Positions 47,119 to 61,374 of a DNA stretch of 64,000 nucleotides are shown one piece after another (position 1 is the first letter of the stretch; each line of letters opens with the position of its first letter). Under the pieces are notes generated by a model, which worked only from the letters and a program-made list of their open reading frames with translations, searched no databases and was not told the origin of the DNA. Made by a program: the position numbers and the translations under genes. Origin of the DNA: Olleya namhaensis. Lineage in GTDB: Bacteria; Bacteroidota; Bacteroidia; Flavobacteriales; Flavobacteriaceae. The stretch is from assembly GCF_900114005.1 (NCBI RefSeq), contig NZ_FORM01000003.1:186001-250000 (forward strand), given 5' to 3'.

Positions 47119-47751
47119 TTATAAATCAATTACTGTAATATTATTTCGATGAAGTTTTATTTTACCATCAATTTCTAAGGTTTTTAATAATCTAGAAATC
47201 ACGACTCTAGAGGTGTGTAAATCTCTTGCAATTTCTTGATGCGTGACATGTATAACTTCATTATGATTAACCATCGCCTTGTCTTTTAAGTATTTAAACA
47301 AACGCTGATCCATCTTTAAAAAAGCAATGGTATCAATAGCTTCTAACAATTCTGACATTCGATTATGATAGCTTTGTAACACAAATTTTTGCCAAGATTT
47401 ATACTTACCTAACCACTCTTCCATTTTTACAATGGGCACCATGATTAATTTAGTATCGGTTTCGGCAACAGCCCTAATTTCACTTTTAGAATTACCTAAA
47501 CAACAAGACAATGTCATGGCACAAGTATCTCCTTGCTCTATAAAGTATAGTATCAATTCGTCACCATCTTCATCTTCCCTCAAAATTTTAATAGCGCCAC
47601 TTACTAAAAGTGGCATTGACTTTATGTAGTCACCAATTTCGATTAATTTAAAACCCTCAGGAATATCTTTATAAGTCCCAACATTATTAATTTCTTGAAT
47701 CAATTCATCCTCAAATAAATACCCGTAATTTTGTTGTAACTCTTCTAACAT
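47119..47751 (-). CDS. Crp/Fnr family regulator with clustered cysteines
   Basis: A 210-residue regulator: cyclic-nucleotide-binding-type beta-barrel (about 20-115), dimer helix and winged helix (about 165-205; HQEIARDLHTSRVVISRLLK). The only cysteines are C77, C83 and C84, in GDTCAMTLSCC within the barrel, which suggests thiol, persulfide or metal sensing instead of cAMP. The FNR-type N-terminal cysteines are absent. In the recognition helix, VVISR replaces the ETISR of FNR, in line with a half-site other than TTGAT. Sites of the form GTAAC-N4-GTTAC precede the adjacent tauE gene and four or five other promoters nearby; this protein is the natural candidate to bind them. Confidence 0.92.
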   Translation of the reverse strand: MLEELQQNYGYLFEDELIQEINNVGTYKDIPEGFKLIEIGDYIKSMPLLVSGAIKILREDEDGDELILYFIEQGDTCAMTLSCCLGNSKSEIRAVAETDTKLIMVPIVKMEEWLGKYKSWQKFVLQSYHNRMSELLEAIDTIAFLKMDQRLFKYLKDKAMVNHNEVIHVTHQEIARDLHTSRVVISRLLKTLEIDGKIKLHRNNITVIDL

Positions 47752-58674: not shown

Positions 58675-60048
58675 ATGAAAACTAAAGTAAAAATTACATT
58701 TTTAGGAGGCGCAAAAACAGTAACAGGATCTAAATATCTTATTGAAGCTTTTAATACTTCTATATTAATTGATTGTGGTTTATTTCAAGGTCTAAAAGAT
58801 TTAAGACAACTAAATTGGAACCCTTTACCCATTGCTGTTTCAAAAATTGAAACAATATTACTAACTCATGGGCATTTAGATCATGTTGGCTATTTACCAA
58901 GGTTAATAAAACAGGGTTTTAATGGTAAAATAATTGGTACAGCGCCTACTCTAGCTATTGCCGAAATTATACTTAAAGACAGTGCTAAAATACAGGAAGA
59001 AGAAGCAAAAAAAGCAAACAAAGAAAAATATACTAAGCATCAACCAGCTTTACCTTTTTATACTGCTAAGGAAGTAGATCAAACCGTATCAAAATTTGAA
59101 GTACAAGTCGAAGACAAATGGATTGCTATAAATAATCACATCTCTTATCGATTTAAATATAATGGTCATATAATAGGGTCTACGTTTATTGAACTTGATA
59201 TAGAAGGAAAACGATTTGTGTTTTCTGGAGATATTGGTAGGGTTAATGATTATTTATTAAACGACCCAAAACGACCTGATCAAGCGGACTATTTGTTTCT
59301 AGAAAGTACTTATGGCAACAAACTACACCCTATCGAAGACATTGAAAATAAACTAACTCAAATTATTAAAGAGACCATAAACACTAGAGGCAATTTAATT
59401 ATACCAAGTTTTGCGGTAGAGCGTTTACAAATGCTAATGTTTATCTTATTTAAACTTTATCAAAAAAACAAAATACCAAACATCCCCATTTTTGTTGATA
59501 GTCCAATGGGTAATAATGTGTTAGAGATTTTTAAACGTTTTCCTAAATGGCATAAGCTATCTGAAACCGATTACAATGCTATGTGTAAGCACATAAATAT
59601 TATTAAAAGTTATGCAGATACTTGGAAAACCATTGATGATCCAAGAAGTAAAATTATAATTGCAGGTAGCGGAATGGTTACCGGTGGTCGCGTTTTAACA
59701 TACTTGCAACAATTAATAGATGATGCCTCTACAACTATTTTATTGGTCGGCTATCAAGCAGAAGGCACAAGAGGCAGACTATTAAAAGAAGGCGCTCACG
59801 AAATTAAATTTTATGGTAAATACTATCCAGTAAAAGCAGCTGTATTAACTATAGATAGTCTCTCTGCTCATGCAGATCAGAATGGGTTACTACATTGGTT
59901 AAGTGCTATTAAAAACACGCCAAAAACAGTTTATCTAATACATGGCGAACCTACTGCCCAAAATGCTTTAAGAGTTAAAATTAAAGATACCTTTAACTGG
60001 TATACTTGTATCCCAAATTTATTTGAAACTATAGAAATAGAGTTATAG
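58675..60048 (+). CDS. MBL-fold beta-CASP nuclease (CPSF73/YSH1-like RNA-specificity type)
   Basis: A 457-residue metallo-beta-lactamase with beta-CASP insertion. Motifs: LTHGHLDHVG (H65, H67, D69, H70), GDIGRV for the next aspartate, GSGMVTGGRV, SAHADQNGL and the C-terminal HGEPTAQNAL of the RNA-specificity (RMMBL) part. Relatives are RNA endo/exonucleases like CPSF73. It is translated 3 nt after the ATP-cone nuclease gene, so two nucleases and a stress protein share one operon. Confidence 0.92.
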   Translation: MKTKVKITFLGGAKTVTGSKYLIEAFNTSILIDCGLFQGLKDLRQLNWNPLPIAVSKIETILLTHGHLDHVGYLPRLIKQGFNGKIIGTAPTLAIAEIILKDSAKIQEEEAKKANKEKYTKHQPALPFYTAKEVDQTVSKFEVQVEDKWIAINNHISYRFKYNGHIIGSTFIELDIEGKRFVFSGDIGRVNDYLLNDPKRPDQADYLFLESTYGNKLHPIEDIENKLTQIIKETINTRGNLIIPSFAVERLQMLMFILFKLYQKNKIPNIPIFVDSPMGNNVLEIFKRFPKWHKLSETDYNAMCKHINIIKSYADTWKTIDDPRSKIIIAGSGMVTGGRVLTYLQQLIDDASTTILLVGYQAEGTRGRLLKEGAHEIKFYGKYYPVKAAVLTIDSLSAHADQNGLLHWLSAIKNTPKTVYLIHGEPTAQNALRVKIKDTFNWYTCIPNLFETIEIEL

Positions 60049-60060
60049 ATAATGTACAAC

Positions 60061-60104
60061 ATGATATTTATCATACTAATTAACTTGTAATAATTCTATC
60101 TTTA
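60061..60104 (+). promoter_or_regulatory. FNR-like class II promoter upstream of candidate sRNA
   Basis: The perfect palindrome ATGATATTTATCAT (60061-60074) is centred 29.5 nt from the first base of TATCTTTA (60097-60104). The predicted start is near 60109, followed by 185 nt without an ORF. Confidence 0.7.
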
Positions 60105-60108
60105 ATTT

Positions 60109-60276
60109 ATAGTAAAAACCATATAATATTTAGATTACAAAATCTAATATTTTAAAATTACCACACGCTATTAATCATTAACACGACGCCTCAAAAACAG
60201 TCTTGTTAATAGGTAATAAAAGATGATGTAATCTTTAAACAGGAAGTATGGCCTACTTTACTTCCTGTTTTTTTTT
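60109..60276 (+). ncRNA. Candidate FNR-controlled small RNA or attenuated leader
   Basis: From the predicted start near 60109 the transcript would be about 168 nt. It contains the hairpin TTAGATT-ACAA-AATCTAA (60130-60147), an unpaired C-rich stretch (ACCACACGC and CACGACGCCTC, about 60162-60192), a small AAGAT/ATCTT hairpin and a strong terminal hairpin with U-run (60237-60276). No open frame of useful size is present. The next gene begins only 18 nt beyond the U-run, so it is either read through or the RNA is an attenuator. Confidence 0.5.
60237..60276 (+). terminator. Strong intrinsic terminator just before the 146-residue ORF
   Basis: AAACAGGAAGTA (60237-60248) pairs with TACTTCCTGTTT (60259-60270) around a 10-nt loop; nine T residues end at 60276. 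The ATG of the next gene is at 60295. Confidence 0.88.
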
Positions 60277-60294
60277 AATAAACAAATCATAAAA

Positions 60295-60735
60295 ATGAAA
60301 ACACAAAACAAAAACAAAATGGTAGAATGGTATGGTGCAGACCGCATGCATGAAATGTCTAAAACCTGGTTATCTGATTTAAATTTTATTAAAGATGAAC
60401 AAGTGTTTTTAGAAGAATTAATTACAGATTATACACAACTAATTATAGATGACCACGTATTAGCTAGAGCGCAAGATGCAGCCACTGCTTTATTGAGAAC
60501 AAAGAGAGGCAGTCAAAAATTAATTACTGCTTTAGTAGCACATGAAAATGATCTTGAGCTAATGGTTGACGGTAAAAATGAATTAGATAAAGAAGAACAA
60601 TATAAAGCTGATCATCTAGCCTTTATTAAGCAAGTAAGTTCGTTTTTTTATGATTATAAAGCTGTGAAATCTGAAATTTTCAATTTGGTAAAAACCTTAA
60701 TGAAAAGAGATAAACAAGACCATTTATTAAACTAA
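60295..60735 (+). CDS. Conserved helical protein of unknown function in the stress cluster
   Basis: A 146-residue, soluble, almost entirely helical and charged protein (KTWLSDLNFIKDEQVFLEEL, then RAQDAATALLRTKR). I do not recognise a family. It has no signal peptide. A strong terminator and U-run end 18 nt before its ATG, so its expression depends on read-through or on a start within that short gap. It is followed after 3 nt by a lipoprotein gene. Confidence 0.78.
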   Translation: MKTQNKNKMVEWYGADRMHEMSKTWLSDLNFIKDEQVFLEELITDYTQLIIDDHVLARAQDAATALLRTKRGSQKLITALVAHENDLELMVDGKNELDKEEQYKADHLAFIKQVSSFFYDYKAVKSEIFNLVKTLMKRDKQDHLLN

Positions 60736-60738
60736 ACC

Positions 60739-61374
60739 ATGAAACAACTCTTACTAATATTACTTGTCTGTTCGCTTTACAGTTGCGGAAGTACACAATT
60801 AAAAGACCGTTGGATTAGTCCCGAAGCAGATAATTACACACTAGAAAAAGTGTTTATTGTTGGGTTGACTGACGATCCTGAAGCTAGAGAAAAATTCGAA
60901 AAAAAATTACAAAACCAATTAACGTCACGAGGAATTGAAGCTACAATTAGTCTTGATAAATTTGATGCAGAATTTCTTGCTAAAAAAAGAACCGACACAG
61001 AAATAAAAGCTTTAGAAAACCAGCTATTAAAAGAAGGTTATGATGCTGTTGTGTTTACCAAAGTGGTTGGAATTAAAAATAAAATCCAGTTTAAAAAAGA
61101 CTATTCCAATAGTTCTAAAAGTCATAATCGTTTTAACGATGATTATTTAATGTATCAAGACCAACATTTTAATCCAGATGCATATAATGAGTATCAAGTC
61201 TATAACGCAGAAACCGCTGTATACTGCTTATGCCCTACTAAAGACCGCACGTTAATATGGAAAGGATATATAGATATTGTGGATCCAAAAAATATTAATA
61301 AAACGGTAAATGATTACTCAAAACTTTTAATTTTAGTTTTAGAAGAAGATAAAATAATTCCACAAAAAAACTAA
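60739..61374 (+). CDS. Putative lipoprotein in the stress cluster
   Basis: A 211-residue protein with a lipoprotein signal (MKQLLLILLVCSLYSCGS, lipobox cysteine at residue 16). The mature part begins TQLKDRWISPEADNYTLEKV and has a DUF4136-like look (a Bacteroidetes lipoprotein type with alternating strands: KVFIVGLTDD, GIEATISLDKF, YDAVVFTKV). Function unknown. Cotranscribed with the 146-residue protein. The stop lies in a hairpin shared with the convergent stress protein gene. Confidence 0.8.
   Translation: MKQLLLILLVCSLYSCGSTQLKDRWISPEADNYTLEKVFIVGLTDDPEAREKFEKKLQNQLTSRGIEATISLDKFDAEFLAKKRTDTEIKALENQLLKEGYDAVVFTKVVGIKNKIQFKKDYSNSSKSHNRFNDDYLMYQDQHFNPDAYNEYQVYNAETAVYCLCPTKDRTLIWKGYIDIVDPKNINKTVNDYSKLLILVLEEDKIIPQKN

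Follow-up and report, generated by a model that had tools for sequence, protein, structure and literature searches.

The locus

The 64,000-nucleotide (nt) stretch of Olleya namhaensis DNA analysed here (contig NZ_FORM01000003.1, positions 186,001 to 250,000; hereafter the window) contains a predicted non-coding RNA at 60109-60276, located between a gene for a beta-CASP metallo-beta-lactamase-fold protein (58675-60048) and a gene for a protein of 146 amino acids (aa) (60295-60735). The RNA carries a short element, which is exactly complementary to the linker of a second small RNA (sRNA) encoded elsewhere in the genome and called the anti-motif sRNA below, suggesting that the candidate might act as a decoy. 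Three universal-stress-protein genes as well as FixG_C, FixH and DsbD_2 genes are found nearby, and the RNA gene adjoins low-oxygen respiration genes. Genomes are labelled as follows: G000 is O. namhaensis ("own" below), relatives of the genus include G001, G002 and G009 (the last being Olleya marilimosa), and G116 and G329 belong to another genus. The features of the locus, in window positions, are:

60061..60074 (core 60062-60073), + strand: FNR/CRP-family operator-like palindrome ATGATATTTATCAT, centred about -41.5 from the predicted start
60097..60104, + strand: -7 box TATCTTTA, sigma-A type, consensus TAnnTTTG
60109..60276, + strand: predicted RNA of ~168 nt, its start inferred from the box geometry and its end given by the U-run
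60133..60138, + strand: 5' arm GATTAC of helix P1, partner 60228-60233; paired in 4/4 genomes, one pair varying on one side
60157..60161, + strand: 5' arm ATTAC of helix P2, partner 60213-60217; both partners changed in 3/5 pairs, one cell left unpaired in G002
60166..60177, + strand: element CGCTATTAATCA, exact complement of the anti-motif RNA linker
60177..60210, + strand: hairpin P3, differing in sequence among genomes
60213..60217, + strand: 3' arm GTAAT of helix P2
60228..60233, + strand: 3' arm GTAATC of helix P1
60237..60276, + strand: intrinsic terminator, stem AAACAGGAAGTA/TACTTCCTGTTT, loop of 10, U-run
60295..60735, + strand: downstream gene 1, encoding 146 aa, without a match in Pfam or NCBIfam; could be reached by read-through
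60739..61374, + strand: downstream gene 2, no Pfam or NCBIfam match; lipoprotein-like N-terminus by eye

A reading made earlier from the letters of the window (the sequence-only reading) had proposed a terminated non-coding RNA behind an FNR-type promoter, which is supported by the promoter spacing, the fold, and the terminator kept in four genomes. No forward-strand open reading frame (ORF) of at least 20 aa lies over 60050-60294 except in the surroundings of the 60295 gene, and the three listed ORFs overlapping 60050-60294 are all on the reverse strand, so the segment is free of ORFs as proposed; the downstream ATG is indeed 18 nt past the U-run. Own promoter, no ORF and an intrinsic terminator are the sequence-level features of a trans-acting sRNA.

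In the terminator, 60237-60248 pairs with 60259-60270, which agrees with the 12-bp stem described before, while the U-run (60268-60276) had been counted too generously: three of its nine U are inside the stem and six are left. The automated terminator scan returned none, its loop limit being 8 against the loop of 10 here. The predicted fold of 60105-60294, with the terminator counted in, beats 200/200 shuffles (z -4.64). Two internal hairpins had also been proposed, the first of which (about 60125-60151) is probably not the conserved fold, because it competes with helix P1 (60133-60138/60228-60233), formable in 4/4 genomes. The supposedly unpaired C-rich stretch belongs in part to helix P2 and in part to the element CGCUAUUAAUCA (GCTATTAATYA across genomes), which is held in an internal loop closed by P1 and P2.

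Promoter and possible regulators

Both parts of the FNR-like promoter anticipated at 60061-60104 are present, namely the palindrome ATGATATTTATCAT, with its core TGATATTTATCA 23 nt ahead of TATCTTTA, and the -7 box itself, which follows the Bacteroidota/flavobacterial consensus TAnnTTTG given in PMC9723704. The gap between the box (TGAYN4ATCA) and TAnnTT is 23 nt in 9/9 related loci measured (own, G001, G002, G009, two loci of G004, G005, G116 and G329). Three more box matches in the same loci (one each in G001, G009 and G116) have no TAnnTT within 45 nt, and extra TAnnTT are found at other distances in some of the nine. The TGATN4ATCA-like palindrome is at the class II distance from the -7 box that is characteristic of a promoter controlled by an FNR/CRP-type factor.

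Genome-wide, the box/-7 geometry gave 31 matches versus 13 in the reversed control (three genomes; own 6 versus 2), and is enriched but not specific. The own matches include boxes ahead of a universal-stress-type gene and a patatin-like gene (named by eye). In other genomes, TGAYN4RTCA was matched at most 700 nt upstream in 20/29 loci of the 146-aa gene family, a raw count without background rate. A sigma-70-type promoter scan was at chance (16 found versus 16.2 expected); Bacteroidota promoters are of another type.

A Crp-like protein is encoded in the window at 47119-47751. It has no evident N-terminal cysteine cluster, and therefore gives no support for iron-sulphur FNR oxygen sensing. We infer from the box and its spacing that the promoter of the RNA may be under oxygen control.

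Conservation and separability from the downstream genes

The own genome, G001, G002 and G009 have in common the gene order, box, RNA, fold, terminator stem, and the unpaired 11-nt element GCUAUUAAUYA. Covariation had been named by the sequence-only reading as a check of the hairpins. In the four-row alignment 98.9% of 88 cells are paired, and three P2 pairs are changed on both sides. This result was reached by 18/500 shuffles, and slid controls pair in 34-55% of cells; because the structure was hand-fitted to the same four sequences, the evidence is modest. The terminator pattern AACAGGAAGT..ACTTCCTGTT has one match per genome in 4/60 genomes, with 0 in the reversed control. A covariance model matched 14/395 genomes at E 0.1, four of them its source genomes, under strict search filters that can miss weak homologues and did miss G004. 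Most of the extra matches inspected look like mere terminators; L148 seems to be coding sequence, and in L154 a single box match lies nearby. When the region was searched by blastn, 24/99 genomes had matches; among the five opened in detail, L003-L005 and L008 are related and L002 is unrelated.

The arrangement varies among the other relatives. In G116 and G329 the box lies directly ahead of the 146-aa gene, without the RNA. G004 has, at a second locus, an RNA that is driven by a box and shares the terminator stem; it comes after a universal-stress-type gene and beside a second Crp-like regulator gene (by eye), and there the element follows the first hairpin/terminator stem and is itself followed by a second strong terminator. 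At 86% and 85%, the 146-aa proteins of G004 and G005 come closest to the own protein (65-70% in the others compared in the genus), and their operon leaders keep the box and lack the element, with only a mismatched stem by eye and no T-run. G003 and G007 (no box within 300 nt) and G008 (no box within 700 nt) possess the 146-aa gene directly after another gene. Box, RNA and operon genes therefore appear separable across relatives, which favours an independent RNA.

This bears on the main rival explanation, which takes the RNA for a 5' leader of the genes at 60295-61374, with a terminator that limits or conditions read-through and a short transcript arising as a by-product. Such a leader is consistent with the gene order and close spacing that own, G001, G002 and G009 share, with the absence, by eye, of a convincing separate promoter between the U-run and the ATG of 60295, and with the box that drives the 146-aa gene directly in G116 and G329. 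However, the terminated RNA of G004 stands at another locus, apart from its T-run-free operon leader, no conserved alternative antiterminator fold was seen in the four sequences (the search was not exhaustive), and the conserved unpaired part matches a small RNA. We regard the leader explanation as rather unlikely on its own; leader/read-through and decoy roles could both be true at once, because no convincing promoter precedes 60295.

In three loci of other genera (L038, L039 and L042), the member of the 146-aa family comes after a gene of small-heat-shock type (named by eye), and a hairpin-like terminator is located shortly before the ATG.

The complementary small RNA

The exact complement of the element is the opposite strand of one site, corresponding to one gene per genome in 12/12 genomes. 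The own anti-motif gene, of ~85 nt, is at G000:C19 near 50464 (L125:1463-1550, - strand), and those of the other genomes are at L243, L266, L091, L094, L248, L258, L223, L279, L209, L197 and L217. The gene has a -7 box of the TAnnTT(T/C)G-like type, and consists of a hairpin, a linker rich in A and U that holds TTGATTAATAGCG and is complementary to GCUAUUAAUCAA, and a terminator. The RNA shows 91% mean column identity, and of 47 consecutive positions (18-64 of the own RNA) 46 are unchanged across two genera, unlike the sequence upstream of the gene, which drifts. The linker is predicted to be 72-77% unpaired in six of the 12 genomes, those other than G001-G005 and G009.

In four loci scanned, the anti-motif gene gave 20 Rfam matches with E no higher than 1, none of which reached its gathering score. 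Its core is absent from the viral contigs searched, and no plasmid match was found; a shorter 18-mer of the RNA matched one viral contig, whose context was judged unrelated by eye. In G001-G005 and G009, a related terminator-bearing unit with AATAGCGATGG before its terminator lies 3' of the gene, and is perhaps a paralogous small RNA.

Distribution of the element

The 12-mer form of the element, GCTATTAATCAA, has 142 matches in 12 related genomes, compared with 4 in the reversed control and 18 in a codon-permuted control, which was added since the reversed control was judged too lenient for a codon-like 12-mer. The element is present in 4/4 syntenic RNAs as GCTATTAATYA, where Y is compatible with G-C or G-U pairing. 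GCTATTAATYA is found at 29 sites of the own genome versus 6 reversed, and occurs once within the window.

After identical array copies were collapsed, the 142 sites gave 135 distinct contexts, which were assigned to categories by simple rules. In 26/135 contexts the element lies in a leader recognised by both a -7 box and a start codon 11-17 nt further on, and in 5/135 in a leader recognised by the ATG alone. The other non-coding contexts lie before terminators (23/135), have a -7 box only (16/135) or are of other kinds (37/135), and the remainder are anti-motif genes (12/135) and coding sequence (16/135). The 18 codon-permuted control sites comprise 13 coding and 5 other non-coding. Among the 29 own sites, five have a -7 box and ATG, and two more have an ATG at leader distance (one coding-sequence site excluded). 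One own leader gene, for a curlin-repeat protein, matches Curlin_rpt at E 6.7e-49 and exceeds the cut-off of 165 bits of the NCBIfam CsgB model with 181.1 bits; another encodes an OmpA/thrombospondin-3 protein (OmpA, E 6.2e-24), and two others (L115, L134) have no Pfam match. Leaders of the other genomes were assigned by likeness to the own leader genes, not by family search.

According to these contexts, the element might also be taken for a protein-binding site on RNA or DNA, the complementary RNA gene being merely another copy. In many leaders the element is just past the -7 box, a position that would suit an operator or an RNA site at the 5' end. However, it occurs in leaders in one orientation only (genomes pooled, 25/125 contexts in the sense of the messenger RNA (mRNA) versus 0/131 antisense), its positions vary outside leaders (internal, 3'-untranslated-region-like), and in 12/12 genomes its complement belongs to a linker that hardly varies, within a gene that has a promoter and a terminator. 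This explanation is improbable in our judgement.

The element is also present in other putative small RNAs. Tandem units of ~137-140 nt were found at L127 and L128 (own G000:C19:433101 and 433379), L081, L093, L212 and L103. Each unit combines a TACGTAgttcTACGTA palindrome and a -7 box with the element, placed at the presumed 5' end, and with a small hairpin plus terminator, the whole resembling an array of ~75-nt RNA genes. In 9/12 genomes the element lies within a recurrent TGACAT(C)..GATGT..element..ATGTCAT-like stretch (L102, L242, L269, L237, L225, L283, L077, L200 and L215), a further candidate structured RNA. In four genomes (L244, L238, L208 and L193) it is preceded by GTGTAAATGTAAA. 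The 12-mer resembles bacterial boxA. An identity with boxA was dropped, as GCTATTAATYA is absent from 8/8 16S rRNA loci examined (of the own locus, 240 nt of leader).

Predicted pairing

The own element is a 12-nt perfect match to the own anti-motif linker. The linker and the own RNA are predicted to pair over the element with -17.1 kcal/mol, an energy reached by 1/1000 dinucleotide shuffles; the corresponding counts are 2/1000 in G009 and 3/1000 in G001. The full-length own duplex was matched by 5/300 with the target shuffled. The element is predicted to be well exposed in G001 and G009 (mean unpaired 0.97 and 0.82). Complementarity to an exposed region of another sRNA, as expected of a sponge, is above chance in own, G009 and G001, and in G002 not at the element. 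By these models, the pairing potential is good in G001 and G009, fair in the own RNA and doubtful in G002, and in G004 it would rest on the element after the first hairpin.

The same complementarity would be found if the anti-motif sRNA regulated this RNA, e.g., by triggering its decay or altering read-through into the operon, instead of being titrated by it, and 31/135 contexts of the motif are leader-like. In those leaders, however, the element is 11-17 nt ahead of the ATG, whereas here it is 117 nt from the downstream ATG, and such regulation seems to us an outside chance.

Proposed function

We give an even chance to the proposal that 60109-60276 is a stand-alone FNR/CRP-controlled RNA whose element titrates the anti-motif sRNA, freeing surface-protein mRNAs at low oxygen. 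An FNR/CRP-type factor would turn on the RNA under oxygen limitation, and the intrinsic terminator would end it; the P1/P2 loop would present the element as a mimic of the sRNA site in the leaders, and by titrating the anti-motif sRNA the RNA would serve as its sponge, or decoy. The other matches of the anti-motif sRNA would be those 11-17 nt ahead of start codons, in the curlin-repeat and OmpA-type mRNAs, and titration may free these surface-protein mRNAs, or silence them if the anti-motif sRNA is an activator. The promoter geometry, terminator, fold, element, complementarity and genome-wide pattern on which this proposal builds are all read from the DNA sequence.

A wider form of the proposal is somewhat short of an even chance: the low-oxygen decoy would release curli-like amyloid and OmpA-type mRNAs, and other RNAs (the tandem ~75-nt genes and 3'-untranslated-region-like ones) would share the mimic, giving one seed sRNA and many decoys, each with its own signal. 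From the sequence alone, a single conserved seed RNA is indicated, together with its probable surface-protein targets and with decoys that would respond to separate signals, in one case through an FNR/CRP-type promoter. If true, oxygen status would be linked to amyloid and outer-membrane composition.

Several results weigh against the decoy proposal. The own and G002 RNAs (GCTATTAATCAT and GCTATTAATTAA, respectively) are one-letter variants of the 12-mer, outside the 142 matches. Exposure of the element is predicted to be incomplete in the own RNA (0.54 unpaired on average, 0.09-0.98 for single bases) and lower in G002 (0.37), and the G002 duplex was reached by 5/1000 shuffles, with the best duplex away from the element. 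The own duplex energy was reached by 5/1502 window tiles, the own tile among them, and the full-length own duplex was matched by 18/300 with the sRNA shuffled. In G004, the first domain of the RNA is without the element, 902/1000 shuffles pair as well as it does, and AACAGGAAG-type terminators found elsewhere in the family weaken the homology. Nine of the 10 further genomes from the covariance model were inspected (L152 left out), and no convincing box-driven RNA was found in them. Finally, the 146-aa gene follows the RNA closely in the four syntenic genomes, as a leader would predict.

The sequence-only reading had called an FnrS-like RNA conceivable. A repressor of this kind, acting directly on aerobic genes through the C-rich stretch, fits an FNR-type promoter and a short terminated RNA but is very improbable, for the stretch is not conserved apart from the element and the idea gained no support (it was weakly tested, without a genome-wide target search), the conserved unpaired GCUAUUAAUYA being the complement of another small RNA and recurring in surface-protein leaders.

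Comparison with known RNAs

FnrS of Escherichia coli is a small RNA with an FNR-type promoter and an intrinsic terminator. The candidate RNA shares shortness and both of these features with FnrS, and, compared by description only, differs in its proposed role as a decoy rather than a direct repressor. Enterobacterial sRNA sponges or decoys carry a target mimic of a base-pairing sRNA. The candidate likewise carries a target mimic, and unlike them has an FNR/CRP-type promoter, a flavobacterial host, and a place among several RNAs with the same element.

According to PMC11697453, FopS/GibS of Bacteroides with RbpB are multi-copy sRNAs with a shared 5' region, which target outer-membrane-protein mRNAs near the start codon. 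As far as that description goes, the difference is that the element here is common to mRNA leaders and RNAs, while the complement is in one RNA gene per genome. PMC9723704 calls the Flavobacteriaceae understudied and describes an sRNA deletion. Its subject, Rfp18 of Flavobacterium psychrophilum, is a conserved, strongly folded flavobacterial sRNA that the cell requires to express protease precisely (PMC9723704). Compared by that description only, Rfp18 differs in being predicted to pair via its third stem-loop. The multicopy FopS sRNAs and Rfp18 are the nearest Bacteroidota parallels known to us. A literature search returned no paper with both Olleya and sRNA, which does not establish absence from print, and although 10-mers of the element occur in 144 papers, none among the matches listed was on flavobacteria by title.

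None of the Rfam families, 6S-Flavo (RF01685) included, reached its gathering score in the window. With the limit relaxed to E 5, the loci L001, L003, L004, L005 and L008 gave 8 matches, all of microRNA type and none covering the RNA. 6S-Flavo is also a structured flavobacterial RNA, but its copies lie elsewhere: it was found in 10/10 genomes searched (8 over the cut-off), and the own copy (G000:C18:118942-119068) is separate from the RNA described here. A Flavo-1 RNA (RF01705) match was also detected in the own genome (L090:2145-2265), with 48.6 bits versus a gathering score of 42.
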